DNA from: Rhodocyclus gracilis
GTDB lineage: Bacteria > Pseudomonadota > Gammaproteobacteria > Burkholderiales > Rhodocyclaceae
Reading direction: 5' to 3'
NCBI RefSeq assembly: GCF_009617575.1
Contig: NZ_WIXJ01000006.1
Coordinates: forward strand, 1-64,000
DNA length: 64,000 nt
This document shows, piece by piece, positions 4,252 through 38,539 of this stretch. A model generated the notes under the pieces. The model searched no databases and was not told where the DNA came from. It saw only the letters and a list, made by a program, of their open reading frames with translations. The stretch's first letter is position 1. Every line of letters begins with the position of its first letter. The position numbers were made by a program, and so were the translations under genes.

Positions 4252-4259
4252 AGAAGGTC

Positions 4260-5431: not shown

Positions 5432-5472
5432 CGCCTGCGCCTGCCCCGCCTGATTCCAGCCATTCTCGCTTG

Positions 5473-5501: not shown

Positions 5502-5633
5502 ATAGGGATCGCTTCGTTCGGGATTCGCCACCCGAATGCTAATTTCGCTGCCAATTCAGGGAGTCACCGTTTCCAGCAGCGATATCCGAGGCGGGTCTGC
5601 CCCCCGATGCCATAACAAATAACGGGGCAAGGC

Positions 5634-6641
5634 GTGATTGAAATCGACAACATCAGCAAGCACTACGTCGTCGACGGCGTGGCCATTCCGGCGATCTCCG
5701 GAATCAGCCTGCGCGTCGAAGCGGGCGAAGTGTTCGGCATCATCGGCGTCTCCGGTGCCGGCAAAAGCACGCTCGTCCGCACGCTGAATCTGCTCGAACG
5801 GCCGGACAGCGGGCGTATCCGAGTCGACGGCAGCGACATCACCACGCTTTCCAAGGATCAGCTGCTGCGCTACCGACGCAAGACCGGGATGATCTTTCAG
5901 CATTTCAACCTGATCAGCGCCAAGACCGTCGGCGAAAACATCCGCTTTCCGCTCAAGCTGGCCGGCGAATACACGCGCGCCGAGATGGACCGGCGGGTCG
6001 ATGAACTGCTCGATCTCGTCGAACTCGGCGGCCACCGCGACAAATATCCGGCGCAACTCTCCGGCGGGCAGAAACAGCGCGTCGGCATCGCGCGCGCACT
6101 CGCCAACCACCCGAAACTGCTGCTCTGCGACGAAGCCACCTCAGCGCTCGATCCGCAAACGACGCAGTCGATCCTCTCCCTGCTGCTCGATATCAACCGC
6201 CGCTTCGGTCTGACCATCGTCCTCATCACGCATGAAATGGACGTCATCCGCCGCATCTGCGACCGCGTCGCCGTGCTCGACCGCGGCGTGCTCGTCGAAG
6301 AAGGCGTTGTCGCCGACGTCCTGCTGCATCCGCAGCACGAAATAACCCGCGCGCTGGTGCAGGAAAGCTGCCCCAGCGCGACGACCGGCCAGCGTCTCGG
6401 TCTCTCCGGGCCGCTCTTCCGTCTGACGTTTCTCGGCGCCGTCACCTACCAGCCGATCCTGCAAAGCATTTCAGCGGCGCTCGATGTTGGTTTCAACATC
6501 GTCGAGGGCGTTGTTGGGCGGATCAAGGAGACGCCCTACGGCCAGATCACCGTACAGGCGCTTGGCGACGCCGCCGACCCGGCGCGCATCGCCGCCGCCT
6601 TTGGCGAACACGCCGTCCGTTGCGAGGCATTACCGTCATGA
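5634..6641 (+). CDS. metN: Methionine ABC transporter ATP-binding protein MetN
   Basis: A 335-residue ATPase of the D/L-methionine importer MetNIQ. Walker A is GVSGAGKST (residues 38-46), the ABC signature is LSGGQKQRVGIARAL, and Walker B is LLLCDEATSALD. The C-terminal ~80 residues (VTYQPILQSISAALDVGF, GQITVQALGD) form the NIL/ACT-like domain that binds methionine and inhibits the transporter, a hallmark of MetN. The start is a GTG at 5634. The stop overlaps the metI ATG by four bases (ATGA), so translation is probably coupled. Confidence 0.95.
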   Translation: MIEIDNISKHYVVDGVAIPAISGISLRVEAGEVFGIIGVSGAGKSTLVRTLNLLERPDSGRIRVDGSDITTLSKDQLLRYRRKTGMIFQHFNLISAKTVGENIRFPLKLAGEYTRAEMDRRVDELLDLVELGGHRDKYPAQLSGGQKQRVGIARALANHPKLLLCDEATSALDPQTTQSILSLLLDINRRFGLTIVLITHEMDVIRRICDRVAVLDRGVLVEEGVVADVLLHPQHEITRALVQESCPSATTGQRLGLSGPLFRLTFLGAVTYQPILQSISAALDVGFNIVEGVVGRIKETPYGQITVQALGDAADPARIAAAFGEHAVRCEALPS

Positions 6642-21619: not shown

Positions 21620-21976
21620 ATGGAACCGAAAGACACCACCCCCAACGAGGACTACAAGGGCTTCACCAACGCCACCTGCCCCTTCTATCCCTGTCACAGC
21701 GGCGTCAAGCGCGAGTTCAACTGTCTGTTCTGCTATTGCCCGCTGATCGCCTACGAGTGTCCGGGGCAGTACAAGGTGTTCACCAGCAAGAATGGCGTCG
21801 TGCGCAAGGACTGTACCGATTGCTCCCTGCCGCACGACGGCTATCGGCAATCGTGGAATTTCATCCAGAAGTGGGTCGAGCGTCCCGTCATCTGGTCGGG
21901 CAAGGCGCAAACGCGCCCGCTCGCTCCGCGCCCCGAAGCGGCCAACCCCGAGCCGGACGCCTCCCTGCCGTCGTGA
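21620..21976 (+). CDS. Cysteine-rich small-domain protein
   Basis: A 118-residue protein with nine cysteines in the first ~75 residues: CPFYPCHSG, CLFCYCPLIAYECPG and KDCTDCSLPHDGY. This matches the Cys-rich small domain family, probably a metal-binding module; the tail (RPEAANPEPDAS) is disordered. The gene overlaps the next flavoprotein by four bases (GTGA), and a TcuB-like Fe-S protein follows, so the three are likely one operon. Function is unknown; a role in cofactor or cluster insertion for its neighbours is a guess. Confidence 0.8.
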   Translation: MEPKDTTPNEDYKGFTNATCPFYPCHSGVKREFNCLFCYCPLIAYECPGQYKVFTSKNGVVRKDCTDCSLPHDGYRQSWNFIQKWVERPVIWSGKAQTRPLAPRPEAANPEPDASLPS

Positions 21977-23592
21977 GCGTCGGCAGCCCTCCTTCCGAAG
22001 CTACTGAAAACACCTGCCCGGTCGACGTACTCGTCATCGGCGGCGGTGTCGCCGGCTTATGTGCAGCACTTGAGGCCGCCGCAGCGGGCGCTTGCGTCCA
22101 TCTGCTGGAAGCCGCCCCGCGCCCGCTGCGCGGCGGGAATGCCCGCCACTCGCGCAACCTGCGCCAGGCCAACGTTCACGAAACCCCCTGGCAACGCGAC
22201 CACTATCCGGTCGCCGACTTTCGCGCCGAATTGCTCGCGGCCACGGGCCACAGTAGCAGCGTCGGCAGCTGCGGCGACATCGAAGACTCCGCCAGCACGG
22301 CATTGCTGGTCGACACGCTCGTTGCCGGTTCGAGCGAACTGGCCGACTGGCTGATGGCGCACGGTGTCGCCTTGCAGCCGACCGCCGGCGGCCTCATCCC
22401 CTGGTCGCGCAAAACCGTCTTTTTTCTCGGCGGCGGCAAGGCGATGGTCAACGCCCTCTACGCTGCCGCCGACACCGCCGGCATCCACGTCACCTACGAC
22501 TGCCGCGTGCCGTCCCTCCCGCTTGAGCCGGCGCGCCCGACCACGTCGCCAGCAGCCAGCGGACCGATGAGTGAGCGGGAAGAATCGGCCACCTGCGCAC
22601 CCGGTGCGCCCGACGCACGCTTTGCGATCATCGCCGAAACACCGCGCGGCCCACGCCGTTTCAGCGCCCGCGCCGTTGTCGTCGCCAGTGGCGGCTACCC
22701 CGCCAATCGCGACTGGCTGGCCGAACGCTGGGGAGACGCCGCCCGCCATTTCGCCAATCGCGGTAGCCCCTATCTGCGTGGCGAACTGCTGCACGCCCTC
22801 CTCGCTCAAGGTGCGCAGCCGGTCGGCGTTGCCGGCGATTGCCATCTCGTCGCCGTCGACGCGCGCGCGCCGCAGGACGACGCCGGCATCGTCAGCCGCG
22901 TTGACGGCATGCCGCTCGGCATCGTCGTCAACCGTGACGGACAGCGCGTTTGCGACGAAGGCGAGGACATCGGGCCGATCCGTTTTTCGCACTGGGGGCA
23001 ACGCCTCGCGCACCTTCCCGGCCAACTGGCCTGGCTGCTTCTCGACGCCGACGGGCTCGCCGCCCTGCCGGCGCTGCTCTGCCCGCCGGTCATGGCGCCG
23101 ACACTGGAAGCGCTCGCTGCCCGCACAGAGATCGACGGCGACGCGCTTATCCGCACCGTTGCCACCTTTAACGACGCCTTGGCCGCCGCGCGGGCCAACG
23201 GCGACGAGCGCGCCACTCCGCCCGGCCAACCCAGCCGGCGCGTGCATGACAAACCGCCGATCCGGCCGCTCTTGCGCGCCCCCTTTGCCGCCATCCCGAT
23301 GCAGCCCGGGGTGAGCTTCACCTGCTTTGGCGTCGCCGTCGACGCGGCGGCGCGGCTGCGCCGCGACGATGGCAGCGTGTGTTCCGCGCTCTTCGCCGCC
23401 GGCATGATCATGGCGCCCGCCATCCTCGGCAGCGCCTACCTGTCGGGCGCAGCGCTGACCATCAGTGCGGTGTTTGGCCGGATTGCCGGGCGGAATGCGG
23501 CGGCCGTCGCACTTCCCCGCCCGAACGCCGCTGCCACCTTGCCCGCGGGCGCCACCGCACCAGCGCCGCTCCCCGGCAACAGCCCGCCATGA
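21973..23592 (+). CDS. tcuA: TcuA-type FAD-dependent dehydrogenase; probable flavoprotein half of a split CobZ
   Basis: A 539-residue flavoprotein of the succinate dehydrogenase/fumarate reductase A superfamily. The N-terminal FAD loop is VLVIGGGVAGLCAALEAAAAG, followed by GGNARHSRN and ARAVVVASGGY. The C-terminal SYLSGAALTISAVFGRIAGRNA type end is typical of TcuA (tricarballylate dehydrogenase). In Rhodobacter capsulatus a TcuA-TcuB fusion called CobZ replaces CobG in cobalamin synthesis. Here the two halves are separate but overlap (ATGA). No tcuC transporter is near; btuF is divergent and the corrin genes lie 9 kb away without cobG, so the CobZ role is favoured by context. The start is the GTG at 21973. 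Confidence 0.8.
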   Translation: MSVGSPPSEATENTCPVDVLVIGGGVAGLCAALEAAAAGACVHLLEAAPRPLRGGNARHSRNLRQANVHETPWQRDHYPVADFRAELLAATGHSSSVGSCGDIEDSASTALLVDTLVAGSSELADWLMAHGVALQPTAGGLIPWSRKTVFFLGGGKAMVNALYAAADTAGIHVTYDCRVPSLPLEPARPTTSPAASGPMSEREESATCAPGAPDARFAIIAETPRGPRRFSARAVVVASGGYPANRDWLAERWGDAARHFANRGSPYLRGELLHALLAQGAQPVGVAGDCHLVAVDARAPQDDAGIVSRVDGMPLGIVVNRDGQRVCDEGEDIGPIRFSHWGQRLAHLPGQLAWLLLDADGLAALPALLCPPVMAPTLEALAARTEIDGDALIRTVATFNDALAAARANGDERATPPGQPSRRVHDKPPIRPLLRAPFAAIPMQPGVSFTCFGVAVDAAARLRRDDGSVCSALFAAGMIMAPAILGSAYLSGAALTISAVFGRIAGRNAAAVALPRPNAAATLPAGATAPAPLPGNSPP

Positions 23593-24797
23593 CGCCAGCC
23601 GCAAACGATACAGCCGCTCCCGGGCGCTTCGGGCCGTCACCGGCGCGCACCGCCCTCGCCGCCATCCCGCTCGTGATCGACGGGAGTGAGATGGGCAAAC
23701 GGGCAAAGGCCGGCAAGGAGGCCAAGGCAACCATAACCGACGAAGCGCGGCGCACGCTGGCGCTGTGCAACGTGTGCGGCTACTGCACCGGCTACTGCGA
23801 CGTCTTTGCCGCCGCCGAGCGGCGACCGGCGCTCGCTGACGGCGATCTCGCGCATCTGGCGCACCTCTGCCACAACTGCCGCTCCTGCTATTACGCCTGC
23901 CAGTACGCGCCGCCGCACGAATTCGCCATCAACGTGCCGGCGACGCTGGCTCGGCTGCGCGCCGCCGACTACCGGGCACGTGCTTGGCCATGGGCGCCGT
24001 CAACGCCTGCTCTGGGTGCGCTGGTCGTCGCCTGCCTGCTCGGCGTGCCGGCGCTCACGCTGGTGGCGGTGCCGGCCGATACTCTCTTTGCTGCACATCG
24101 CGGCCCGGGCGCCTTCTACGCCATCGTCCCCCAGAACCTGATGAGCGGCGGCGCCGCACTCGCCTTCGGCAGCGCCGCGCTGCTGATTGTCGCCGGGGTC
24201 GTGCGTTTCTGGCGCCAGAGCGCGCGCACGGCCCCCATGCCCACGGCCAGCGCCGGCACCGCCTTGCCGCGCGCACTCGCCGACATCGCTACGCTGCGCA
24301 ACCTCGACGGCGGCGGCACCGGCTGCCACGAACGCGAGGACGCATCGGCGCGCGGTCGCCGCCACGCGCACCACGCGCTGTTCTACGGCTTCCTGCTCTG
24401 CCTCGCCTCGACCGCCAGCGGCGCCTTCCAGCACCATTTCCTCGGCCAGCCGGCGCCCTACCCGGTGCTCAGCGCGCCGGTGCTCCTCGGCAGCCTCGGC
24501 GGCGTCGCCATGCTCGCCGGTATTGCCGGACTGACGCGGCGCAAACGCCATGCCGACCCAGCGCCGACTGCCAGTGAAACCGAGCCGGCCAACCGCCTGC
24601 TGCTCGCCACGCTCGCCGCCATCGCTGCCAGCGGTCTGGCGCTGCTCGCGCTGCGCGACACGCCGGCGATGGGCATGAGCCTCGCGCTGCACTTGGGCAG
24701 CGTGCTCGGGCTGGCGCTGTCGATGCCCTTCGGCAAGTTCGTGCACGGCGCCTATCGCGGGGCGGCGCTGCTGCGTCAGGCGAGGGAAGACCGGTAG
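23589..24797 (+). CDS. tcuB: TcuB-type Fe-S membrane protein; probable second half of a split CobZ
   Basis: A 402-residue protein. The N-terminal region has two cysteine clusters, CNVCGYCTGYCDVF and CHNCRSCYYACQYAPPHEF, that should bind two 4Fe-4S clusters. The rest is a membrane domain of about six hydrophobic segments with histidines (HHALFYGFLLCLAS, FQHHFLGQPAPYP, GKFVHGAYRG) suited to heme ligation. This is the TcuB/CobZ C-terminal architecture. It would pass electrons to or from the flavoprotein encoded just upstream. A degenerate copy of the segment around 24383-24492 is present at 32563-32672. Confidence 0.82.
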   Translation: MTPAANDTAAPGRFGPSPARTALAAIPLVIDGSEMGKRAKAGKEAKATITDEARRTLALCNVCGYCTGYCDVFAAAERRPALADGDLAHLAHLCHNCRSCYYACQYAPPHEFAINVPATLARLRAADYRARAWPWAPSTPALGALVVACLLGVPALTLVAVPADTLFAAHRGPGAFYAIVPQNLMSGGAALAFGSAALLIVAGVVRFWRQSARTAPMPTASAGTALPRALADIATLRNLDGGGTGCHEREDASARGRRHAHHALFYGFLLCLASTASGAFQHHFLGQPAPYPVLSAPVLLGSLGGVAMLAGIAGLTRRKRHADPAPTASETEPANRLLLATLAAIAASGLALLALRDTPAMGMSLALHLGSVLGLALSMPFGKFVHGAYRGAALLRQAREDR

Positions 24798-24990
24798 CTC
24801 GCGGCGCAGAGTCGTCGCTGAACTGCAGGCCACTTACTGACCACTCACCGACCACTCGGCGGCCTTCCGCAGACAACCCGCCAACCACTCGCCGCCGGCG
24901 GCGACGGCTGATCTGTCGACGCCGGCCTGCGTTGGCGCGTGACGCGAGCCGGCAAGGCCCCGACCGCCCCGGCACCAGCACACCGACGCT

Positions 24991-25902
24991 TCACTCCGGA
25001 AAATTGACCGCCGTGTGTCCCTGACTGGCGAGCAGGTGATCGATGAACGCCGATGCCACCGCCGACAGATGCTTGCCGGCCGGATAGGCGACGTACCACT
25101 GGCTCTGCAGCGGGAAACCTGCCACGTCGAGCGGCTGGATCAGGCCGGCTTCACCCTCCAGCGCAAGCGTGTGGCGCGACAGCACGGAGAGGCCGAGGCC
25201 GCCGGCGATCGCCTGCTTGATCGCCTCGTTGCTGCCGAGCTCCATGCGCACCTTGAGCGTGCAGCCCTGCGCCGCGAAGAAGCGCTCGGCCGCACGGCGC
25301 GTGCCGGAGCCGCGTTCGCGCAGGATGAACGGCTCCTCGGCGATGCGCGCGGGCGGAATCGCCTTCTGCCCGGCCAGAGGATGGTCGTGGCGGGCGAGGA
25401 CGACCAGCGGATTGTCGGCAATCGGCGTGGCGACGACGTCCAGCCCGCCCGGCGGCTTGCCGAGGATGACCAGATCGTCCTCGTTGGCAGCCAGGCGCGC
25501 GAGCAGCTTCTCGCGGTTGGTGACGGTGAGCTCGGCCTCGATTCCCGGATGGCGCGCGCAGAACTCGCCGAGCAGGCGCGGAATGAGGTACTTGGCGGTC
25601 GTCACCATGGCAATGCGCAGGCGGCCGCGTTTGAGTCCCTGCAGGTCGGCCAGCCGCATTTCCAGCCGCTCCAGCGCGTCGAGCGTTTCGCGACTGGTCG
25701 CCAGAACTTCCTCACCAGCGGCGGTGAGATGCAGCTTCCGGCCGATGCGTTCGAGCAGCGGCAGGCCGACGGACTCCTCGAGCTGGCGCACCTGCGCGAA
25801 CACCGCCGGCTGCGTCAGATGCAGCGCCTCCGCCGCGCGCGTGTAGCTCAGGTCGCGGGCGACGGCGGCAAAGATCTGCATCTGGCGGAGGCTGAAGCGC
25901 AT
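24991..25902 (-). CDS. cbbR: LysR-type regulator CbbR
   Basis: A 303-residue LysR-family activator. The N-terminal helix-turn-helix [36 protein letters not shown] is followed by a linker helix and the effector domain starting [21 protein letters not shown], as in CbbR proteins. It is divergent from cbbL with 130 bases between, the standard arrangement for control of the Calvin-cycle genes in response to metabolites such as RuBP or NADPH. It probably also represses itself. The gap 24798-24990 downstream holds no gene, only short GACCACTC repeats. Confidence 0.92.
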
Positions 25903-25915
25903 CGCTCAAGAATAC

Positions 25916-25955
25916 ACAAAACTCTATTTCCAGTCTAAAAACTATCGAGTTCTGT
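25916..25955. promoter_or_regulatory. Candidate CbbR operator between cbbR and cbbL
   Basis: ACAAAACTC (25916-25924) is an imperfect inverted repeat (8 of 9) of GAGTTCTGT (25947-25955), in an AT-rich island within GC-rich DNA. LysR sites are usually such dyads in the divergent gap. The cbbL start follows 78 bases downstream. Confidence 0.55.
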
Positions 25956-26032
25956 TTATTCGCAGACCTCGGCATAGTGCCTCCACCCCGAGCGTATCGG
26001 GTCCGACCGACGAGCACACTGAGGAGAGAGGC

Positions 26033-27454
26033 ATGGCCGCAAAGAAATACGACGCCGGCGTCAAGGAGTACCGAACGATGTACTGGCAGCCGGATTATCC
26101 GGTGAAGGATTCCGATTTTCTCGCTGTTTTCAAGGTCGTTCCGCAGGCCGGCGTGTCGCGCGAGGAAGCCGCCGCCGCGGTCGCCGCCGAGTCATCGACC
26201 GCGACATGGACGACGGTGTGGACCGACCTCTTGACCGACCTCGAGTACTACAAGGGTCGCGCCTACGCGATCGAGGACGTGCCGGGCAACGACGAGGCCT
26301 TTTACGCCTTCATCGCCTACCCGATGGACCTGTTCGAGGAAAGCTCGGTGGTCAACGTGTTCACCTCGCTGTGCGGCAACGTCTTCGGCTTCAAGGCGGT
26401 GCGTTCGCTGCGCCTCGAGGACGTGCGCTTCCCGCTGTGGTTCGTCACCACCTGTCCCGGCCCGCCACACGGCATCCAGGTCGAGCGCGACAAGATGGAC
26501 AAGTACGGCCGGCCGCTGCTCGGCTGCACGATCAAGCCCAAGCTCGGCCTGTCGGCGAAGAACTACGGCCGCGCCGTCTATGAATGCCTGCGCGGCGGCC
26601 TCGATTTCACCAAGGACGACGAGAACGTCAACTCGCAGCCGTTCATGCGCTGGCGCGACCGCTTCTCCTTCGTGCAGGAAGCAATCGACAAGGCCGAGCA
26701 GGAAACCAGCGAGCGCAAGGGGCACTACCTCAACGTGACTGCCGGCACCTTCGAGGAAATGATGGAGCGTGCGGCCTACGCCAAGGAACTCGGCTCGCCG
26801 ATCATCATGAACGACTTCCTCACCACCGGCTGGGCGGCGCACCAGAGCCTGTCCAAGTGGTGCCGCAAGAACGGCATGCTGCTGCACGTGCACCGCGCGC
26901 TGCACGGCGTGATCGACCGCAACCCCAACCACGGCATCAACTTCCGCGTGCTGGCCAAACTGCTGCGTCTGATGGGCGGCGACCACCTGCACTCGGGCAC
27001 CGTCGTCGGCAAGCTCGAAGGCGACCGCGCGGCGACGCTCGGCTGGGTCGACCTGATGCGCGAACGCCACATCAAGGCCGACCGCGCGCGCGGCATCTTC
27101 TTCGATCAGGACTGGGGACCGATGCCCGGCGTCTTCCCGGTCGCCTCCGGCGGCATCCACGTCTGGCACATGCCGGCGCTGGTCTCCATTTTCGGCAACG
27201 ACTCGGTACTGCAGTTCGGTGGCGGCACCATCGGCCACCCCTGGGGCAACGCCGCCGGCGCCTGCGCCAACCGCGTCGCGCTCGAAGCCTGCGTGCAGGC
27301 ACGCAACGAAGGTCGCGCGATCGAGAAGGAAGCCAAGGACATCCTCACCGAAGCCGCCCGCTCCAGCCCCGAACTCAAGGTGGCGATGGAAACCTGGAAG
27401 GAGATCAAGTTCGAGTTCGACGTGGTGGACAAGCTCGACGTCCAGCACCGCTGA
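26033..27454 (+). CDS. cbbL: RuBisCO large subunit, form I
   Basis: A 473-residue form I large subunit that fixes CO2 onto ribulose bisphosphate. Catalytic features are intact: Lys168 in [10 protein letters not shown], the carbamylated Lys194 in [19 protein letters not shown], and loop 6 Lys327 in [22 protein letters not shown] is a strong ribosome site. The downstream small subunit of 118 residues and cbbQ/cbbO place it with form IA (cbbLSQO). Some positions differ from usual form IA, such as NHGINFRVL where HHGIHFRVL is normal (Asn303) and [10 protein letters not shown]. Confidence 0.97.
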
Positions 27455-27492
27455 ACCGGCCGACCTCCCCTATTTGACTGAAAGGACAACAC

Positions 27493-27849
27493 ATGAGCAA
27501 CGTACAGGACTACGCCTCCCGCCTGAGCGATCCGGGTAGCCGCAAGATGGGCACCTTCTCCTACCTGCCGCCGATGGACGCCGCGCAAATCCGCAAGCAG
27601 ATCGAGTGGATCGTCAGCAACGGCTGGAACCCGGCGATCGAGCACGTCGAGCCACAGCACGCCATGGACAGCTACTGGTACATGTGGAAGCTGCCGATGT
27701 TCGGCGAAACCGACATCGACCTGATCCTCGCCGAACTCGACGCCTGCCACCGCGCCAACCCGGACAACCACGTGCGCCTGATCGGCTACGACAACTTCAA
27801 GCAGAGCCAGGGCGCCAGCATGGTGATCCATCGCGGCCGGGCGGTCTGA
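27493..27849 (+). CDS. cbbS: RuBisCO small subunit, form I
   Basis: A 118-residue small subunit. It contains [19 protein letters not shown], the conserved [11 protein letters not shown] and the C-terminal [16 protein letters not shown], all typical of form IA small subunits. It has a good AAGGA ribosome site and follows cbbL by 38 bases. It assembles with CbbL into the L8S8 holoenzyme. A GC-rich hairpin lies between it and cbbQ. Confidence 0.96.
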
Positions 27850-27868
27850 CCCCAGCCAGCCCCCGCTG

Positions 27869-27905
27869 CCCCGCCGCGCCGCCCCGTCTCTGACGCGCGG
27901 CGGGG
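27869..27905 (+). terminator. GC-rich intergenic hairpin between cbbS and cbbQ
   Basis: CCCCGCCGCGC (27869-27879) pairs perfectly with GCGCGGCGGGG (27895-27905). There is no T-tract, so it is better read as an mRNA stabiliser or partial terminator that keeps cbbLS transcripts more abundant than cbbQO. Confidence 0.5.
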
Positions 27906-27927
27906 GCTTCCCCGACAGGAGCGTGCA

Positions 27928-28731
27928 ATGAGCGACATCCTTGAGCAGTACCGCATTCCCGCAGAACCCTACTACCGCCCCGTCGCCGACGAGGTCACGC
28001 TGTTCGAGGCCGCCTACGCGGCGAAGATGCCGCTGATGCTCAAGGGGCCGACCGGCTGCGGCAAGACGCGCTTCGTCGAACACATGGCCTGGTGGCTCGG
28101 CAAGCCGTTGGTCACCGTCGCCTGCAACGAGGACATGACCGCCTCCGACCTCGTCGGCCGCTTCCTCCTCGACGCCTCGGGAACGCGCTGGCAGGACGGC
28201 CCGCTGGCCTTCGCCGCGCGCCACGGCGCGATCTGCTACCTCGACGAAGTGGTCGAGGCGCGCCAGGACACGACGGTGGTGATCCACCCGCTGACCGACA
28301 AGCGCCGTGCGCTGCCACTGGAAAAGAAGGGCGAGTTCCTGCGCGCACACCCCGACTTCCATCTGGTGATCTCGTACAACCCGGGCTACCAGAGCCTGAT
28401 GAAGGACCTCAAGCAATCGACCAAGCAGCGCTTCGGCGCGCTCGACTTCCACTACCCGGCGCACGCGGTCGAATCCGAAATCGTCGCCCATGAGGCGAAG
28501 ATCGATGTCGCCGCGGCCGACAAGCTCGTCGCCATTGCCGAGCGCTCGCGCAACCTGAAGGGGCACGGCCTCGACGAAGGCCTGTCGACGCGCATGCTGA
28601 TCCACGCCGGCGAGCTGATCGCGCGCGGCGTGGCGCCGCTGGCGGCGTGCCGCGTCGCGCTGGTGCGGCCGATCACCGACGACCCCGACATGCGCGACGC
28701 GCTCGACGCCGCCGTCGCCACCTTCTTCTAG
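27928..28731 (+). CDS. cbbQ: RuBisCO activase AAA+ subunit CbbQ
   Basis: A 267-residue MoxR-class AAA+ ATPase. Walker A is [13 protein letters not shown], Walker B is [10 protein letters not shown], and sensor and arginine-finger regions follow ([23 protein letters not shown]). CbbQ forms a hexamer that, with CbbO, strips inhibitory sugar phosphates from RuBisCO active sites. ACAGGAGCG is the ribosome site. It is co-transcribed with cbbO. Confidence 0.95.
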
Positions 28732-28746
28732 ACGCCGGGAAACGCG

Positions 28747-31128
28747 ATGAGCGCGCACCTTGCCGAGCATCAGGCGCTGCTCGACGAACTGCCGGCAGCG
28801 GCGCAGGCGCTGGCTGCCGCCGCCTGGCCCGAGGCGGTGCGCGCGCTCAGTGCGCGTGGCCTCGACAACTGGCTCAAGGGCGCGCTGGCGCTGCAGCGCA
28901 TGGGGCGCGGCGACGGCATCGTCGCCGCCTGGATCGGCGACGTGCCAGCGGTGGCGCGCGAACTCGGCGAGGAAATCCTGCCCGACTTCGCCCAGCACTG
29001 CCTACAGTTCGCCTCGCGCACCTCGGGCGCAGTGATCGAGCGCATCGTCGCCAGCGCGCCGACGGCCGCGCGCCGCCTCGGCGATGCCGAACTGTTCCGT
29101 GACTACCTGCGCCTGCTCGACGTCCTGCTCGGCCAGGCGCCACGTGGGCTGCGCCCGCTGCTCGAACACCTAGACGAACTGCTCGCCGTGCTCACGCTCG
29201 GCGGCCTGCGCCGCTGGGCGCTATGGGGCGCGCAAGCGCACCGCACCGACTTTGCCGAACAGCTGCGCTACTTCAGCCTTGCCTCCGAAGAGGCGAAGGC
29301 GGTGCTGCAGCAGGAACGCAAGGGAACGCTGTTCGTCGACATCCACCGGCGCATCGGCATGTACCTGCGCGCGCTGTGGGGGCGCGACTTCTTCCTGCGC
29401 CCGAGCGCCGGCGATTTCGAGTCGCGCGAAGGCAGCCGGCCGTTCATCGCCGACTTTTTCGTCCATCTGCCCGACGCCTGCGACGACTGGCAAGGTCTGC
29501 CCGGGCTCGAGCTGTACCGCGCCGCCGCCGCGCACTGCGCTGCGCACATCGTGGCGACGAGCGCGCGTCTCGACGGCGAGGCGTCATCCCAGCCCACCCC
29601 GCTGTCGACACTGCAACGCGCCTGCGTCGGCCTGATCGAGGACGCACGCGTCGAAGCGCTGGCGATCCGCCGCTTCCCGCGGCTGAAGGAACTGTGGCTG
29701 CAGTTCCACCGCCCCGATGCTCAGCCCGAAGCGCCGACCAACGCGCCGGCCGACAGCGTCGGCGCCCGCTTCGGCCGCATCGCGCGCGCGCTGCTCGACG
29801 CCGATGCCGCCGACGACGCGGGCGCTGCTGATGGCGCTGGCCATCACGATGCGCTCGTCGCCTGGACGCGCGAACGCTTTGCCGCCGCCGATCTGTCCAG
29901 CCACGTCGTTTCGCGCGAACTCGGCCTGGCGCTGGCCGGCGAGATCACGCGCCTCGGCCTGCCCTGGTCGGCGCACCGCGACGGACTGGCCGTTCCCTAC
30001 CGCGACGACAACCGCTACCTGTGGGAATACGACCGCGCGCGCGCCGACGACGCCTTTGCCGCCGCGCAGCGCGAAGCGCAGGTGCGCCGCTACGTCAGCG
30101 TCTCGGAGATGGTCAACGAGGTCGAGGTCGAAACGGCTGGCGACGACGCGCAGGAAATCTGGGTCTGCGCCAGCGAGTTCTTCGCCGACGACGGTGTTTC
30201 GTTCAACGCCCGCGAGGGCCGCGAGCCGGTCGCCGAGCCCTGCCACTACGACGAGTTCGACTACCAGTTGCAACTGACCCGGCCGCTATGGACGACGGTG
30301 CAGGAAAAGCGGCCGAAGCTCGGCGAGCTCGCCGTCGTCGAACAGATCATCGACGCGCACCGTCCGCTGACGCAGCGCCTCAAGCACCTGCTTGAAGCCC
30401 TGCAACCGCAGGGCGTGCAACGCCTCCGCAAGCTCGAGGACGGCGACGAGCTCGACCTCGAAGCGGCAATCCGCGCACAGGTCGACCGGCGCCTCGGGCA
30501 GACGCCCGACCCGCGCGTGATGATGCGTTCGCTGCGCAAGACGCGCGACATCGCCGTGCTGGTGCTGCTCGACCTCTCGGAATCGACCAACGATCGCGTC
30601 GCCGGCCAGGACTACAGCGTGCTCGAACTGACGCGCGCCGCCACCGTGCTGCTCGGCGAGGCGATCGACACCGTCGGCGACGCCTTCGCGCTGCACGGCT
30701 TCTGCTCGGACGGACGGCACAACGTCTTCTACCAGCGCTACAAGGATTTCGCGCAGCCCTGGGGCGATCTCGCCAAGGCGCGGCTGGCCGGCATGGAAGG
30801 CCGTCTGTCGACACGCATGGGCGCGGCGATCCGTCACGCCGGGGCGCAGCTGGCGCGGGTGCGCGCGACGCGCAAGCTGCTGCTCGTCGTCACCGACGGC
30901 GAGCCGGCCGACATCGACGTGCGCGACCCGCACTACCTGCGCTTCGACGCCCAAAAAGCCATCGAGGAAGTCAGCGCCCGCGGCGTCAAGCCTTTCTGCC
31001 TGACGCTCGACCCGCGCGCCGACCAGTACGTCGCGCGCGTTTTCGGCCAGCGCAACTACCTCGTCCTCGACCACGTCGAGCGCCTGCCCGAACGCCTGCC
31101 GCTGCTCTACGCCGGGCTGGCGCGGTGA
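28747..31128 (+). CDS. cbbO: RuBisCO activase adaptor CbbO (von Willebrand A domain)
   Basis: A 793-residue partner of CbbQ. The C-terminal ~220 residues form a von Willebrand A domain with the MIDAS motif in LVLLDLSESTNDR, then TRMGAAIRHAGAQL and LLLVVTDGEPADIDV. The large helical N-terminal part begins MSAHLAEHQALLDELP and is specific to CbbO. The protein links the ATPase to RuBisCO. It starts 15 bases after cbbQ. Length is normal for the family (about 750-800). Confidence 0.94.
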   Translation: MSAHLAEHQALLDELPAAAQALAAAAWPEAVRALSARGLDNWLKGALALQRMGRGDGIVAAWIGDVPAVARELGEEILPDFAQHCLQFASRTSGAVIERIVASAPTAARRLGDAELFRDYLRLLDVLLGQAPRGLRPLLEHLDELLAVLTLGGLRRWALWGAQAHRTDFAEQLRYFSLASEEAKAVLQQERKGTLFVDIHRRIGMYLRALWGRDFFLRPSAGDFESREGSRPFIADFFVHLPDACDDWQGLPGLELYRAAAAHCAAHIVATSARLDGEASSQPTPLSTLQRACVGLIEDARVEALAIRRFPRLKELWLQFHRPDAQPEAPTNAPADSVGARFGRIARALLDADAADDAGAADGAGHHDALVAWTRERFAAADLSSHVVSRELGLALAGEITRLGLPWSAHRDGLAVPYRDDNRYLWEYDRARADDAFAAAQREAQVRRYVSVSEMVNEVEVETAGDDAQEIWVCASEFFADDGVSFNAREGREPVAEPCHYDEFDYQLQLTRPLWTTVQEKRPKLGELAVVEQIIDAHRPLTQRLKHLLEALQPQGVQRLRKLEDGDELDLEAAIRAQVDRRLGQTPDPRVMMRSLRKTRDIAVLVLLDLSESTNDRVAGQDYSVLELTRAATVLLGEAIDTVGDAFALHGFCSDGRHNVFYQRYKDFAQPWGDLAKARLAGMEGRLSTRMGAAIRHAGAQLARVRATRKLLLVVTDGEPADIDVRDPHYLRFDAQKAIEEVSARGVKPFCLTLDPRADQYVARVFGQRNYLVLDHVERLPERLPLLYAGLAR

Positions 31129-31180
31129 GATCGCGGCACGCTATGACGGGCACAACTACGCAGCGCCAGAGGAGGCTTTC

Positions 31181-32122
31181 GTGATTGATGTTGTTGTGCT
31201 GTTTTTTCTCTTTGGGCTGCTCGCCGGCGCGGCTCGTTCCGAACTGAAGTTACCGGCAGCGCTGTATGAGACGCTGTCGGTCTTTCTGCTACTGGCGATC
31301 GGCCTCAAGGGCGGCGAAGGACTCGCCAAGCAGGCGGTGCTGCCGCTGCTACCGCAACTCGGCTCAGTGATCCTGCTCGGTGTCGCACAGACGCTGATCG
31401 CCTACAGTCTGCTGCGCGCGGTCGGCCGTTTCGACCGCGCCAATGCAGCGTCAACGGCAGCGCACTACGGTTCGGTCAGTGTCGCCACCTTCGCCGTCGC
31501 CCTCAACTGGCTAGCAACGCGCGCCATTCCGTTCGAGTCGCAAGCCGCTGTTTTTCTCGCCGTCATGGAAATTCCCGCGATCCTTGTCGGCATTGTCCTG
31601 GCGCGCGGCATTAATCGACACACCAACTGGCGCCGGTTGGCGCACGAAACCTTTCTTGGCAAGGGTGTGACCTTGCTGCTCGGCAGCATGGCGATCGGCT
31701 GGCTGGCCGGCCCGGACGGACTGGCGCCGATCAAAGGCGTCTTCTATGAGCTGTTCAAGGGCGCCCTCGCCCTCTTCCTGCTCGAAATGGGGCTGATCGT
31801 CAGCCGTCACTTCGGCACCTTGCGCCAGCATGGACTCTTTCTGGTTGGCTTTGGTATCGCCATGCCGTTGCTCTCGGCGCTGCTCGGGCTGACGACCGGC
31901 ATCGCCCTCGGCCTGTCGCCGGGCGGCGTGACACTGCTCGTAGTGCTCGCCGCCAGCGCCTCGTACATCGCGGTACCCGCCGCCATGCGCCTTGCCGTCC
32001 CGGAGGCGAACCCGGCACTGTCACTCGCCGCCTCGCTTGGCATCACCTTTCCCTTCAATTTGCTGGTCGGCATTCCGCTCTACCACCGACTGGCCGTCCA
32101 CTTCGCAGGAGATTCGGCATGA
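31181..32122 (+). CDS. sbtA: SbtA-type sodium/bicarbonate symporter
   Basis: A 313-residue membrane protein with about ten hydrophobic segments in two inverted halves, as in the SbtA family of Na+-dependent bicarbonate transporters. Family features include LKLPAALYETLSVFLLLAIGLKGGE, AAHYGSVSVATFA and ASASYIAVPAAMRLAVPEANP. The GTG start at 31181 follows GAGGAGG. The gene lies 52 bases after cbbO on the same strand and overlaps the next gene by ATGA, so it belongs with the carbon-fixation cluster and should supply inorganic carbon. Confidence 0.92.
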   Translation: MIDVVVLFFLFGLLAGAARSELKLPAALYETLSVFLLLAIGLKGGEGLAKQAVLPLLPQLGSVILLGVAQTLIAYSLLRAVGRFDRANAASTAAHYGSVSVATFAVALNWLATRAIPFESQAAVFLAVMEIPAILVGIVLARGINRHTNWRRLAHETFLGKGVTLLLGSMAIGWLAGPDGLAPIKGVFYELFKGALALFLLEMGLIVSRHFGTLRQHGLFLVGFGIAMPLLSALLGLTTGIALGLSPGGVTLLVVLAASASYIAVPAAMRLAVPEANPALSLAASLGITFPFNLLVGIPLYHRLAVHFAGDSA

Positions 32123-32427
32123 CCGCGCCCAGTGAAATCCGCAGCCTGCTGACCGTGATCACCGAAGCAGCACTCGAAAACACCCTGCTGCATGACTTCG
32201 AGGGTCGCGGTGTCCACGGCTGCACTGTCTCCGATGCGCGCGGCCGGGGACAGCGCGGCGTGCGTGACGCCGCTTGGGGAGAAGCGGCGAACGTACGCAT
32301 CGAGGTCATCTGCCGACGCGAATGCGCCGAGGCGCTACTCGACCACCTGCAGCGGCATTACTTCAACAATTACGCCATGGTGGCATTCGTTCAGGAAGTC
32401 GTCGTCCTGCGCCCGAACAAATTCTGA
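32119..32427 (+). CDS. sbtB: SbtB-like PII-family regulator
   Basis: A 102-residue PII-like protein: SLLTVITEAALENTLLHDFE, then the T-loop region GVHGCTVSDARGRGQRGV, RIEVICRRECAEALLDHLQ and YAMVAFVQEVVVL. In cyanobacteria SbtB binds SbtA and adenine nucleotides to gate bicarbonate uptake. The cyanobacterial C-terminal cysteine loop is missing here; the protein ends RPNKF. Translation is coupled to sbtA. Confidence 0.87.
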   Translation: MTAPSEIRSLLTVITEAALENTLLHDFEGRGVHGCTVSDARGRGQRGVRDAAWGEAANVRIEVICRRECAEALLDHLQRHYFNNYAMVAFVQEVVVLRPNKF

Positions 32428-32562
32428 ATCTGCATGTGTGCCAGCGCACCACTCACATGCCTGACCTGACCGCCAAGGTTCGACAAAAACGTCACGAGCA
32501 CCAGGCGAACGGCAGTACAAGCCCCCCGCTTCCATTACTCTGACGCAGGATGTCGACTGTCC

Positions 32563-32672
32563 TACGGCTCCCTGCTCTGCCTCGCCTCGACCGCCAGCGC
32601 CGCCTTCCGGCACCAGGTACTCGGTCAGCCGGCGCCCTACTCCGTCATCAGCGTGCCGGTGATCCTCGGCAG
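32563..32672 (+). pseudogene. Relic fragment of a tcuB-like gene
   Basis: The plus strand reads YGSLLCLASTASAAFRHQV then LGQPAPYSVISVPVILGR and a stop. The TcuB-like protein has YGFLLCLASTASGAFQHHF, LGQPAPYPVLSAPVLLGS at the matching place (24383-24492). DNA identity is high across about 110 bases, with a few substitutions. No start or Fe-S region is present. It is the leftover of a duplicated locus. Confidence 0.85.
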
Positions 32673-32716
32673 ATGACGTACACTCGCGCCTCGCGTAACC
32701 ATTTTTAGGCCATTCA

Positions 32717-33811
32717 ATGACAGGCAGGCAGGGTTGGCAGGATCTTCAAGAGCGTATCCGGGCCGAAATTCAGCATCTGGCAGCCATCAACGCCAGTGAT
32801 CGACGCTGGCCAATGCCTTTTTGCGCCGCCCTCGCCTCCGGCCTGCCGCTTCTGGTCGGCGCGTATTTCGATCATCTCGAATACGGGCTGGTCTCGTCGC
32901 TGGGCGGCATGGTTTTTCTCTACGCGCCCAACACGCCGCTCTATCACCGCATGGTCTCGCTGATGGCCTCAGGATTCGCCATGAGCGCGTGCTACACGCT
33001 TGGCGTGCTGAGCCAGTTCCTGCCCTGGGCGCTGGTGCCGACGCTGGCGTTCATTGCCTTGCTCGTGTCGATGGTTTGCCGCTTCTACGCGCTCGGCCCG
33101 CCCGGCAGCCTGTTTTTCATGATGGCGGCGGCAATTGGCGCGTATTCGCCGATCAACGTTCTCGACGTTCCCCTGCATGTCGGCCTGCTGACCATGGGCT
33201 GCCTGCTCGCCTGCCTGATCGCGTTTTTCTACAGCATCTACGCGCTACGGCAGCAGGCGCCGCAAGCGGTGACACCGCTGCCACCGCCCAGCTTCGAATT
33301 CGTCATCGTCGATTCAGTCATCATCGGCATGTTCGTCGGTCTGTCGCTGATGCTGGCGGAAAGCATGCACCTGGAACGCCCCTACTGGGTGCCGGTGAGT
33401 TGCCTCGCCGTCATTCAGGGCGCCTCGCTGCGCGCAGTGTGGACAAAGCAGACCCACCGCATTGCCGGCACCGCCATTGGCCTCCTGCTCACCTGGGGTC
33501 TGCTCGCCTTGCCCCTCGACAAATGGAGCATCTCGCTGATGATGATTGCCTTGGCTTTCATCATCGAAGTGCTGGTCGTCCGCCACTACGGACTGGCGGC
33601 CGTATTCATCACGCCACTGACGATCTTTCTGGCGGAAGCCGCACGGCTCGGCGCAGGCCCGACCGATGCGCTGCTCATCGCCCGCCTCTTCGATACCGTG
33701 CTCGGTTCGCTGGCCGGATTGCTCGGCGGCGTTTGTCTGCACCACCCGCGTTTTCGCGCGCTACTCGGGCAGCAACTGCGACGCCTGATCCCACGGCGAC
33801 TGCTGTCGTGA
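32717..33811 (+). CDS. FUSC-family membrane protein
   Basis: A 364-residue protein with two sets of four to five hydrophobic segments separated by a hydrophilic loop around residues 175-195. The repeated half pattern (LVSSLGGMVFLYAPN..., and later YWVPVSCLAVIQGASLRAVWTKQTHRIAGTAIGLLLTWGL) matches the FUSC/aromatic-acid exporter-like superfamily. The second-half motif WTKQTHRIAGT is the clearest sign. The long cytoplasmic C-terminal domain of typical AaeB is missing, so this is the compact form. Substrate unknown. Confidence 0.75.
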   Translation: MTGRQGWQDLQERIRAEIQHLAAINASDRRWPMPFCAALASGLPLLVGAYFDHLEYGLVSSLGGMVFLYAPNTPLYHRMVSLMASGFAMSACYTLGVLSQFLPWALVPTLAFIALLVSMVCRFYALGPPGSLFFMMAAAIGAYSPINVLDVPLHVGLLTMGCLLACLIAFFYSIYALRQQAPQAVTPLPPPSFEFVIVDSVIIGMFVGLSLMLAESMHLERPYWVPVSCLAVIQGASLRAVWTKQTHRIAGTAIGLLLTWGLLALPLDKWSISLMMIALAFIIEVLVVRHYGLAAVFITPLTIFLAEAARLGAGPTDALLIARLFDTVLGSLAGLLGGVCLHHPRFRALLGQQLRRLIPRRLLS

Positions 33812-33942
33812 GCGCCGCGCACCGCTCGCCACATCAACTGGCGAAGAGCCGGCCACACTCGCCCGAGGAAGAACTGGCCACCGCCGCATTCCTGCCCACT
33901 AGCCGCCCCTGACCCGCTAACGTTTCGCTAGACATTCGCCGC

Positions 33943-34737
33943 ATGACGCCTCCCGAACCCACTGCCTCCCCCGCTGACTTCAGCCTCCTCATCCTCGGCG
34001 GCACCAGCGAAGCCTACCAACTGGCCGCAGACCTGCACGGCAGGGCCGACACCGGCCTGCGCGTGATCAGCTCGCTCGCCGGACGCACCGCGCAACCGCG
34101 CCTGCCGGCGGGCGAAAGCCGCGTCGGCGGATTTGGCGGCGTAGCCGGCCTGACGGCCTATTTGCGGGCGGAGCACATCGACGCCGTGATCGACGCCACG
34201 CACCCCTTTGCCGGGCAGATGCGCTGGAATGCCGCCGATGCCTGCGCCGCGGCGGGCGTGCCGCTGCTGCGACTGGAGCGCCCCGCCTGGCGAGCCGCCC
34301 CCGGCGATCACTGGCTCGAGATCGACAACTGGGACGAAGCGGTAGCACATCTCGCCGCCAGCGCCCCCGCGACACGCCGTGTGCTGCTGGCGCTGGGGCG
34401 ACAGGAACTGGCGCCCTTCGCCCCCCTTGACCACTGCCATTTCGTCATCCGCAGCGTCGACGCACCCGACCCGCAACCGCCATTCGCGCACGCCGAACTC
34501 GTGCTGGCGCGCGGGCCGTTCTCGCTCGCCGACGAGCGCGAACTGCTCCTTAGCCACGCCATCGACACCATCGTCTGCAAGAATAGCGGCGGCGGCGCGA
34601 CCGACGCCAAGCTCGCCGCCGCGCGCGAACTCGGCGTCCGCGTGCTGATGCGCCGCCGCCCGCCGCAACCGGATTCGCCAAGCGTGGCAAGCGTCGCCGC
34701 CGCAATGCAGTGGGTCGCGGCACGCGCCGGCAAGTAA
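33943..34737 (+). CDS. cobK: Precorrin-6A reductase CobK
   Basis: A 264-residue reductase of corrin synthesis that reduces precorrin-6A to precorrin-6B with NADPH. It begins LLILGGTSEAYQLAADLHG, then ISSLAGRTAQPRLPAGESRVGGFGG, IDATHPFAGQM, LLALGRQELAPF and VCKNSGGGATDAKLAAARELG, all conserved in CobK/CbiJ. It is on the plus strand, convergent with the cobHIJ run. A VOC protein follows after 24 bases. Confidence 0.94.
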   Translation: MTPPEPTASPADFSLLILGGTSEAYQLAADLHGRADTGLRVISSLAGRTAQPRLPAGESRVGGFGGVAGLTAYLRAEHIDAVIDATHPFAGQMRWNAADACAAAGVPLLRLERPAWRAAPGDHWLEIDNWDEAVAHLAASAPATRRVLLALGRQELAPFAPLDHCHFVIRSVDAPDPQPPFAHAELVLARGPFSLADERELLLSHAIDTIVCKNSGGGATDAKLAAARELGVRVLMRRRPPQPDSPSVASVAAAMQWVAARAGK

Positions 34738-34761
34738 CTCACACTCCCGAAAGGAGCGCAC

Positions 34762-35130
34762 ATGTTCGATCACCTGTCACTCGGCGTCAGCGATCTGCCC
34801 GCCAGCGAAGCTTTCTTTCTGAAGGCGCTGGCACCGCTCGGCGTCACGGTCGTCATGCAAGGGCCCTATGGGATCGGGCTGGGCCGCCAGGGCAAGCCAT
34901 CGCTATGGCTGGTGCCGGCCAAGGTCACACCGGCGCCGCTGCATCTGGCTTTCGCCGCCGAAACGCGCGTGCAGGTCGACGCCTTCTACGCCGCGGCACT
35001 CGCCGCGGGCGGCAAGGACAACGGCGCGCCGGGGCTGCGCCCGGACTACCACGCGAATTATTACGGCGCTTTCGTCATCGGCCCGGACGGCCACAACATC
35101 GAGGCCGTCTGCCAGCGGCCGGAGGCCTGA
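34762..35130 (+). CDS. VOC (glyoxalase/dioxygenase superfamily) protein
   Basis: A 122-residue vicinal-oxygen-chelate fold protein: MFDHLSLGVSDLPASEAFF at the start, HLAFAAETRVQVDAFYAAA, and the C-terminal FVIGPDGHNIEAVC. The metal-binding His/Glu pattern is plausible. A ribosome site (GAAAGGAGC) precedes the ATG. It follows cobK but no corrin role is known for this family; co-transcription may be coincidental. Confidence 0.85.
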   Translation: MFDHLSLGVSDLPASEAFFLKALAPLGVTVVMQGPYGIGLGRQGKPSLWLVPAKVTPAPLHLAFAAETRVQVDAFYAAALAAGGKDNGAPGLRPDYHANYYGAFVIGPDGHNIEAVCQRPEA

Positions 35131-35292
35131 GTCCGGTAGCCGCTGGGCGGGGAATCGACGATCAGCGCGAGCGCTGCCAAAATCGTTGCGCGCCCGAGGC
35201 GTTGAGCCTTCTCGTTGCGGCTCCCTCGTTGCCGTCCAGTCGTTGATGTGCTTCGTCGACGCCAGCTTCGTCGACACCTGCTGCGTTGTCGC

Positions 35293-36168
35293 CTAGGTCG
35301 GGCTTCCCTCGTCGTTACTGAGTACTTCGCCGTCGCCCGCCTCGTCATACCAGCGCGGCGTGTAGACCCACGTAGCGCCGTCGCCACGCGGGAAGGCGCG
35401 CGTCTGCGACGAGCCGACGATGACCACGGTGCGCATGTCGACCTGCTCTGGCGTCACCTCGCCAAGCGTGCAGACAACGAGGCGCTCGGCCGGACGACCG
35501 ATGTCGCGGCCAAGGACGACCGGCGTCGTTGCCGGCAGGTGCCGGCGCAGCAGATCGAACGCGCGACCGAGCTGCCAGGGACGCGCCTTCGAGATCGGGT
35601 TGTAGAGCGCCAGCACCAGATCTGCCGTAGCGGCGAGTTCGAGGCGGCGCTCGATCACTTCCCAGGGTTTGAGGTTGTCGGAGAGCGACAGCACGCAGAA
35701 GTCGTGGCCGAGCGGTGCGCCGACGCGCGACGCGGCGGCCTGTGCCGCCGAGATGCCGGGAACGATGCCAACGTCCACCGCCTGCCACGCCGCTGCGTGT
35801 TCGCCGGCGGACACGCACTCGGCGTGCAGCGCCTCGATCACCGCCGTCGCCATGGCGAAGATGCCGGGATCGCCGGACGACACCACGACCACCTTGCGGC
35901 CGCTGGCAGCGAGGGCGAAAGCGTGGCGTGCGCGCTCCATCTCGACGCGGTTGTCGGAGGCGTGCAGCGTCGCCCTGAGCGGCCCGGCCAAGCGAACCGC
36001 CATCTCGACATAAGGGAAGTAGCCGATCAGGTCGTCGGCGTCGCGAAACGCCTCGGCCGCCTCCGGCGCCAGCAGGCCGGCCGATCCCGGCCCGAGACCA
36101 ACGACACGCAGCCAGCCCCCCGCCGACGCCAGCGGCGCCGCGCCGGCGCGCACCACGGGGCGACTCAC
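35293..36168 (-). CDS. cobJ: Precorrin-3B C17-methyltransferase CobJ
   Basis: A 291-residue SAM-dependent methyltransferase for ring contraction. The uroporphyrinogen-methylase fold shows [19 protein letters not shown], then [51 protein letters not shown] and [15 protein letters not shown], typical of CobJ/CbiH. The GTG at 36168 overlaps the cobI stop (GTGA); another GTG lies at 36177. CobJ normally acts on the product of CobG or CobZ. Confidence 0.94.
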
Positions 36169-36896
36169 GCCGCCCACCGTGCGCCCGGAACGAGGATCAT
36201 CGCGAAATAAGGCACGCTCGCCGGATCGATGCTCGACAGCGGCGCGATGCGCTGATTGCCCATGGTGGCGCGCTCGACGTAGTGGGCGCGGTCGAGCAAT
36301 CCAAGCTCTTCGATGACGCTGCGCACCTTGGCGAAATTACTGCCGAGCTTCATGATCGCCGCCGATTCGGTATCGGCGAGACGACGCTTCAGCTCCTCCG
36401 CCGGCAGCACGCCGGAGAGCACCGTCAGGGTCTGATTGCGATAGACCAGCGGCGTACCGACCACCGAGGCGCAAGCCAGCATCGCACACACGCCCGGCGT
36501 GACTTCGGTCTTGTAGCGGTCGGCAAGGCGGTCGTGCACGTACATGAACGAGCCGTAGAGAAAGGGATCGCCCTCGCAGACGACGGCGACATCGCGACCG
36601 GCATCGAGATGCGCGGCGACGATGGCGGCCGATTCGTCGTAGAAGGTGGCCAGCGCCGTTTCATAGCAGAAGGGCGGCGGCAGGTTTTCGGTCGTAACCG
36701 GATAAATCAGCGGTTGCACGATCTGCTCGGGCGCCAGATAACGCTCGATGATGGTAAGCGCGTTCCCTGCCTTGCCGCGCGCGGCAAAGTGCGCCACCAC
36801 GGGAGCCGCACGCAGATGGCGCAGAGCCTTCAGCGTAATCAGCTCAGGGTCGCCGGGACCGACGCCAAGGCCGAACAGTCTGCCGGTTGTGGACAT
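36165..36896 (-). CDS. cobI: Precorrin-2 C20-methyltransferase CobI
   Basis: A 243-residue methyltransferase acting on precorrin-2. It begins [23 protein letters not shown], followed by [39 protein letters not shown] and the end [20 protein letters not shown], which identify CobI/CbiL. The ATG at 36896 overlaps the cobH stop (TGATG); a GTG three bases earlier is possible. It is in a tight cobH-cobI-cobJ unit. Confidence 0.95.
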
Positions 36897-37522
36897 CACT
36901 CGTGCTCCGTACCCAGCGCGTTGAGCGCCGCCGCCGCCATCGCGCTGCCACCGCGCCGGCCGCGCACGATGACGAAGGGCACACCGCGCGAATTGGCGGC
37001 AAGTTCGTCCTTCGATTCGGCGGCGCCGACAAAGCCGACCGGGAAGCCGAGAATCAGCGCCGGCTTCGGTGCGCCCGCGTCGATCATTTCGAGCAGGCGA
37101 AAGAGCGCGGTCGGCGCGTTACCGACCGCCACCACGGCGCCGGCAAGGCGCGGCCGCCACAACTCCAGCGCCGCCGCCGAGCGCGTCGTGCCAAGCTGAC
37201 GCGCGAGTTCAGGCACCTGCGGATCGTTGAGGGTCACGATGACTTCGTTGCCGGCCGGCATGCGCGAACGCGTCACGCCATCGGCAACCATGCGGCTATC
37301 GCACAGAATCGCTGCGCCAGCGGCCAGCGCAACCCGCCCGGCGGCGCCAGCGCCCGGCGAAAAGACGAGATCGTCGACGACGTCGGGCATGCCACAGGCG
37401 TGCGCCACGCGCACCGCGAGTTTCTCCAGATCGTCGGGGATGCGCTCCAGCCGGGCTTCCGCGCGGATGATGGCGAAGGACTGGCGGTAGATGTCGTGCG
37501 CGTCGCGGCTGTAGTCGATCAT
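36896..37522 (-). CDS. cobH: Precorrin-8X methylmutase CobH
   Basis: A 208-residue mutase that moves the C11 methyl group to C12 to give hydrogenobyrinate. It has [21 protein letters not shown] and the active-site His in [34 protein letters not shown] and the C-terminal [17 protein letters not shown] plus [21 protein letters not shown] complete the CobH signature. It is first in the leftward cobHIJ run. Confidence 0.95.
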
Positions 37523-37546
37523 CGGAGCGTCTCGAAAAAACCGGCT

Positions 37547-37552
37547 ATTATA
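37547..37552 (-). promoter_or_regulatory. -10 box for cobH
   Basis: The minus strand reads TATAAT about 25 bases upstream of the cobH start. The -35 region is weak. The rest of the 246-base divergent gap to cobF shows no riboswitch-like structure that I can recognise. Confidence 0.5.
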
Positions 37553-37768
37553 CGCGACCGTCCGGCGCCAGCAGCGTCGGCCGCAACGGCCCGGTGCGCG
37601 CCGTCGACGCCCCAGCGCGCGCCCAGGCGCTCATCCTGCCGCCCGGCCGCCGAAACCGGTATTCCACGCTCGCCGGCGTGCGCACCGCGCAAGGAGCCGA
37701 CGCCCGACACTCTCGACTGGTGCAGACTCTGCGCGAGTAGCGACTTTCCACGATTTTCTCTGTTTACG

Positions 37769-38539
37769 ATGAAAAAAATCCTGCTCATCGGCATCGGCCC
37801 CGGCCATCCGGATTACCTGACGATGCAAGCCGTCAAGGCGTTGCGCACGGTCGACGTTTTTTTCTTTCTGGAGAAGGAAGGTCGCGGCAAGGAGGCGTTG
37901 ATCGCTGCGCGCGACACGATTCTGGCCGAATACGCTGATGCCGCGCGCTACCGCAAGGTGTTCGCGCAAAGCCCACCGCGCAGCACCGAGCAAGGCTACA
38001 CGGCCGGTGTCCGCGACTGGTACGACGACAAAGCGAAGATCATCGCCGGGCTGATCAACGACCAGTTGGCCGACGGCGAAACCGGGGCTTTCCTGATCTG
38101 GGGAGATCCCTCGCTCTACGATGGTACGCTGACCATCCTGCAAGACATCGAACGGCGCGAACTGGCGCAGTTCGACTACGCAATCATTCCGGGTATCACC
38201 AGCGTTCAGGCGCTGGCAGAAAAGCACCGGCTGACGCTCAACCGGATCGGCGAATCGATCACCATCAGCACGCCCCGCAATCTGGCGAACATGCCGGCTG
38301 CCGACATTCATAACACGGTCGTCATGCTCGATTCGAATGCAGCATTCGAGCACATCGACGACGCCCGTCTCGATATTTACTGGGCCGCGTATCTCGGCGC
38401 CGACGACGAAATGCTTGCGGCTGGCGATCTGCGCACGATCGGCCCCGAACTCGCCGAAAAAGCGCGTCAGGCGAGGGCCGAGAAAGGCTGGCTGTTCGAC
38501 ATTTATCTGCTGCGCCGGCGGAATTCGGACGCCGAATAG
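37769..38539 (+). CDS. cobF: Precorrin-6A synthase (deacetylating) CobF
   Basis: A 256-residue methyltransferase that adds the C1 methyl group with loss of acetate, an enzyme of the oxygen-type corrin pathway only. The sequence has ILLIGIGPGHPDYLTMQAV, FLIWGDPSLYDGTLTIL, AIIPGITSVQALAEKH and ITISTPRNLANMP, as in CobF. The ATG at 37769 is without a clear ribosome site. It is divergent from cobH. About 200 gene-free bases follow, with GGAGCAC/GTGCTCC inverted copies around 38606-38704. Confidence 0.93.
   Translation: MKKILLIGIGPGHPDYLTMQAVKALRTVDVFFFLEKEGRGKEALIAARDTILAEYADAARYRKVFAQSPPRSTEQGYTAGVRDWYDDKAKIIAGLINDQLADGETGAFLIWGDPSLYDGTLTILQDIERRELAQFDYAIIPGITSVQALAEKHRLTLNRIGESITISTPRNLANMPAADIHNTVVMLDSNAAFEHIDDARLDIYWAAYLGADDEMLAAGDLRTIGPELAEKARQARAEKGWLFDIYLLRRRNSDAE

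Follow-up and report, generated by a model that had tools for sequence, protein, structure and literature searches.

Between sbtB and a FUSC-family gene, the window (the whole stretch of 64,000 nucleotides analysed from a Rhodocyclus gracilis contig) carries a truncated, decaying pseudogene copy of codons 245-283 of tcuB, located on the forward strand at positions 32557-32672. Quite probably, this non-functional fragment became linked to the left of the FUSC gene when, in the R. gracilis lineage, the latter entered at the 5' end of cobK by illegitimate recombination. The gene-order comparison prompted by the fragment was more useful than the fragment itself, scraps at recombination borders being common; it places the cobZ-type genes of Rhodocyclus in one neighbourhood with cobKJIH, divided in two species by a RuBisCO/bicarbonate island.

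Parent genes, extent and decay of the tcuB fragment

The gene order in the window is zf-tcuA-tcuB, cbbR, cbbL-cbbS-cbbQ-cbbO, sbtA-sbtB, the fragment, FUSC, cobK, a glyoxalase-like gene, cobJ-cobI-cobH (leftward) and cobF. The parent locus comprises a tcuA / CobZ N-terminal-like flavoprotein gene (21976-23592, forward strand; NCBIfam TIGR02485 'CobZ_N-term', 492 bits, cutoff 373) and a tcuB-type gene for a CobZ C-terminal-like Fe-S membrane protein (23646-24797, forward strand; NCBIfam TIGR02484, 443 bits, cutoff 247), both with putative start codons. By these matches the two genes resemble CobZ/TcuA-TcuB, with precorrin-3A oxidation as a putative activity, and they neighbour cobK, cobJ, cobI, cobH and cobF. 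They are two separate genes, unlike CobZ of Rhodobacter capsulatus, which is reportedly one protein. In each of the three Rhodocyclus genomes, tcuA is preceded by the gene for a small Cys-rich zf-like protein (PF04071; 21620-21976 in the window). Further to the right, cbbR (reverse strand) and cbbL-cbbS-cbbQ-cbbO (forward strand) occupy 24991-31128, followed on the forward strand by sbtA (bicarbonate transporter; Pfam PF05982) and sbtB (P-II-like; PF00543) at 31181-32427, the FUSC_2 family membrane protein gene at 32717-33811 (PF13515) and cobK (precorrin-6x reductase; PF02571) at 33943-34737, the product of which has about 10 N-terminal residues more than that of R. tenuis.

When the region 32500-32720 was compared using BLAST with the whole R. 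gracilis genome (2,930,815 bases in 27 contigs), only two places were matched, the region itself and 24378-24493 (forward strand), inside the intact tcuB gene. The aligned segment showed an identity of 88% over 116 bp (E about 2e-36 to 3.6e-36), with 14 changes among 114 compared bases and no insertions or deletions. The repeat of about 110 bases reported in a preliminary description of this DNA, and the significant identity that its proposed pairwise alignment should yield, are thus real; the exact left end lies 6 bases to the left of the position 32563 given there, which pairs with 24384 in tcuB. The fragment represents TcuB residues 245-283, i.e. 39 of the 383 codons, and its tcuB frame indeed runs into a stop, a TGA at 32674, next after codon 32671-32673. 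A tblastn search placed it at 32551-32679, with 65% amino acid identity and one TGA. About 11 of the 39 residues differ from those of the R. gracilis TcuB, so the 'few changes' described earlier are present, but their number, in bases as in residues, was understated. Regarding the family (299 genomes), strong matches to the fragment came only from R. tenuis and R. purpureus, in both cases from the genuine tcuB gene.

Compared with the tcuB gene of the same genome, the fragment has a dN of 0.139 and a dS of 0.122 (10.5 nonsynonymous and 3.5 synonymous changes), a ratio of about 1.1 based on 14 changes only. Over the same stretch, the tcuB genes of R. gracilis and R. tenuis differ by a dN of 0.012 and a dS of 0.107, and those of R. 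gracilis and R. purpureus by a dN of 0.092 and a dS of 0.441; nonsynonymous counts were 10 for the fragment versus its own tcuB and 1 for the latter versus R. tenuis (Fisher p 0.005). The changes F246S and F249S alter residues that are conserved in 16 of 17 and 17 of 17 TcuB homologs, respectively. Because of this excess of amino acid changes and the broken conserved residues, the fragment is read as decaying, in keeping with its earlier labelling as degenerate, and its substitution pattern is consistent with that of a released, near-neutral copy. Identity to a functional parent, a truncated and disrupted frame and no purifying selection (in a small sample) are found together here. As in truncated gene duplicates and pseudogene fragments of other bacteria, a small part from within a neighbouring gene lies out of context, with an in-frame stop and neutral change; the fragment differs from them in nothing beyond the gene concerned.

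The fragment lies directly upstream of FUSC and contributes to a chimeric open reading frame, about 50 codons long, that starts with an ATG at 32550, as might be expected if it were retained for regulation or for coding, be it as a FUSC leader or as a small protein. Such a role is hardly credible, however, given the near-neutral changes in the fragment, at which no promoter- or terminator-like site was found, and no Rfam family was found in the window. Most likely the fragment makes no product, is not expected to have a function and is an ordinary leftover of recombination.

It is very improbable that the entire CobZ-like locus (zf-tcuA-tcuB) was once duplicated and its second copy lost except for the fragment, as the preliminary description had proposed. 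The fragment is a true copy of tcuB, as this proposal requires, but a query with the whole zf-tcuA-tcuB locus yielded from the R. gracilis genome only the locus itself, the fragment and one weak 35-bp match elsewhere, and the surroundings of the fragment contain no further sequence of tcuA, tcuB or zf. When either flank of the fragment was aligned to tcuB with gaps, the scores stayed within the shuffled range, neither flank matching beyond chance, and a second copy was found neither in R. tenuis nor in R. purpureus. With the duplication confined to this piece of tcuB, a second CobZ-like locus lacks support.

Gene order of tcuAB, cbb-sbt and cobK in Rhodocyclus

The genomes of R. tenuis 2761 and R. 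purpureus DSM 168 were used for comparison within the genus. In R. purpureus, zf-tcuA-tcuB and then cobK are found on one contig in conserved order and orientation, separated by a 2.5-kb gap which holds unrelated genes, one of them caspase-type peptidase-like (named by eye). In the R. purpureus genome neither sbtA nor, beyond a distant homolog (33%), a cbbL-type RuBisCO was found. The RuBisCO genes in the window fit the two-subunit form cbbR-rbcL-rbcS-cbbQ-cbbO, which is missing from R. purpureus (PMC8954225). In R. tenuis, tcuB is followed by cbbR to cbbO, a 3.3-kb stretch, sbtA-sbtB, about 100 bp and cobK, and the sbtB-cobK junction of about 100 bp contains neither the fragment nor FUSC. The stretch between cbbO and sbtA in R. 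tenuis (3300-6500 of the locus) holds, by eye, a gene for a LysR-type regulator and purE/purK-like genes; the corresponding gap in the window measures 53 bp.

tcuAB neighbours cob genes in three of three Rhodocyclus genomes. Around the tcuAB pairs of 14 non-Rhodocyclus genomes of the order, no cob gene was present within the 16-20 kb examined, so that no outgroup with the tcuAB-cob arrangement was found. Since tcuB lies 2.5 kb from cobK without cbb or sbt genes in R. purpureus, and R. tenuis has cbb-sbt at that place, the favoured reading of the gene orders is that the cbb-sbt island inserted between tcuAB and cobK, which formerly lay closer together. With three species compared, loss of cbb-sbt in R. 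purpureus, rather than its gain elsewhere, is a less favoured alternative. The synteny comparison called for in the preliminary description thus places cobZ-type tcuAB near cobK and favours its suggestion that the ancestral cob neighbourhood included cobZ-type genes; the fragment is not the evidence for this. Synteny also speaks for an insertion of cbb-sbt between tcuAB and cobK, but not for the idea that the island moved into the site of a lost second cobZ beside cobK, marked by the fragment: R. tenuis has the island there without the fragment, the left flank of the latter resembles the sbtB-cobK spacer of that species, and the cbb and sbt genes differ in history (dS 0.07-0.20 and 0.58-0.65, respectively).

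Flanks of the fragment and its proposed origin

Positions 32428-32562 can be aligned with the spacer between sbtB and cobK of R. tenuis, up to and including the ATG of cobK, with a score of 174, the maximum of 300 shuffles being 133. The cobK-proximal part of this alignment scored 101, which was reached by none of 1000 dinucleotide-based shuffles and by 3 of 2000 random windows. Compared with cobK upstream regions, the left flank gave p about 0.001 for R. tenuis and a weak match (p 0.005-0.03) for R. purpureus; the upstream regions of these two species do not match each other. The sequence that now precedes cobK, after FUSC, matches neither relative (p about 0.5). We infer from about 60 bp that the sequence to the left of the fragment is the displaced upstream region of cobK, with a possible relic of this region and of the original start codon (ATG 32550) at 32495-32552 (forward strand).

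Under the preferred reading, a segment extending from about 32553 to 33978 (the fragment, FUSC and about 170 bp) would have entered at the 5' end of cobK. The former start codon would have stayed in place at 32550, and cobK would have acquired a new N-terminus, MTPPEPTASPADFS replacing MFTV. As the R. tenuis island is free of the fragment and the left flank resembles the sbtB-cobK spacer of that species, the fragment and FUSC probably arrived together at this site, in one event and after sbtAB. At the borders of 32557-33978 neither a target-site duplication nor terminal repeats were found; the interval contains no transposase and has FUSC as its sole gene, unlike a mobile-element insertion. 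With no terminal repeats, the candidate modes of joining are illegitimate recombination, with the fragment as filler DNA whose template lay 8 kb upstream, or import by transformation of a fragment carrying tcuB-FUSC-cobK from a relative. The fragment resembles filler-DNA junctions and the products of homology-facilitated illegitimate recombination in being a short copy at an insertion border without target duplication; it differs in that the event is deduced from the borders in one genome, not observed.

FUSC, an accessory gene, has no match anywhere in the R. tenuis genome and in R. purpureus sits elsewhere, not at tcuB-cobK. Deletion of FUSC in R. tenuis, instead of its insertion in R. gracilis, would be compatible with both compared spacers following sbtB and is considered less likely. 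At the FUSC locus of R. purpureus (2600-5452), an intact copy and a broken one flank a gene that is Fic-like by eye, and a gene that is, again by eye, transposase-like lies close by. Regarding a possible FUSC donor with adjoining tcuB, the FUSC loci examined in other genera were without tcu or cob neighbours.

A further explanation, which appears unlikely, starts from an ancestor with the order tcuB-FUSC-cobK and takes the fragment for the remnant of the resident tcuB at the right-hand boundary of the cbb-sbt island. On its left, incoming tcuB-cbb-sbtAB-cobK DNA would have recombined by homology within tcuB; on its right, the joining would have been illegitimate and inside the resident tcuB. 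One event would then account for the order of cobK-start relic, tcuB fragment, FUSC and cobK; the short tcuB-cobK distance in R. purpureus, without cbb-sbt, would fit as well, as would the retention in the fragment of the probably ancestral A259. This residue is found in 14 of 17 homologs, the tcuB genes of R. gracilis and R. tenuis sharing G, and hints at a source allele of tcuB that was older than the present one or distinct from it, although a single site proves little, only two sites (259 and 280) bearing on the age of the source allele. Against this explanation, the dS of 0.12 places the fragment too close to the present tcuB for an allele replaced from another species (neighbouring genes, 0.6-0.7), the remaining 3' end of tcuB would have to have been deleted, and R. 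tenuis possesses the island without the fragment. If true, it would allow the gain of cbb-sbt in Rhodocyclus to be dated and oriented from the fragment.

Divergence within the island and vitamin B12 routes

Between the window and R. tenuis, dS was 0.20 for cbbR, 0.08 for cbbL, 0.07 for cbbS, 0.13 for cbbQ and 0.18 for cbbO, versus 0.58 for sbtA, 0.65 for sbtB, 0.72 for tcuA and 0.36-0.84 for the cob genes, with an intermediate 0.34 for tcuB as a whole. Nucleotide identity to R. tenuis was mostly 90-99% over about 25.0-31.1 kb and about 83% rightward. Because the dS values of 0.07-0.20 contrast with 0.36-0.84 in the flanking genes, the lineages leading to R. gracilis and R. tenuis probably exchanged the cbb block recently, after their split, and did not exchange sbtAB. 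Strong codon bias could be the cause of the low dS in cbbL and cbbS and is a poor fit for cbbR, cbbQ and cbbO.

Regarding vitamin B12, R. tenuis and R. purpureus have been described as lacking the anaerobic pathway and requiring the vitamin (PMC8954225). Both also carry tcuAB, cobK, cobJ, cobI, cobH and cobF (aerobic, CobZ-type route; cf. 21620-38536 of the window). The CobN/BchH family had no match in the R. purpureus genome, although the organism is phototrophic, which probably reflects an assembly gap or a search miss. A cbiD gene without a match in R. tenuis or R. purpureus is located at 129217-130005 of the R. gracilis contig, outside the window; as it is present besides the cob genes, R. 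gracilis appears, as far as gene content indicates, to combine elements of the aerobic corrin route with elements of the anaerobic one.
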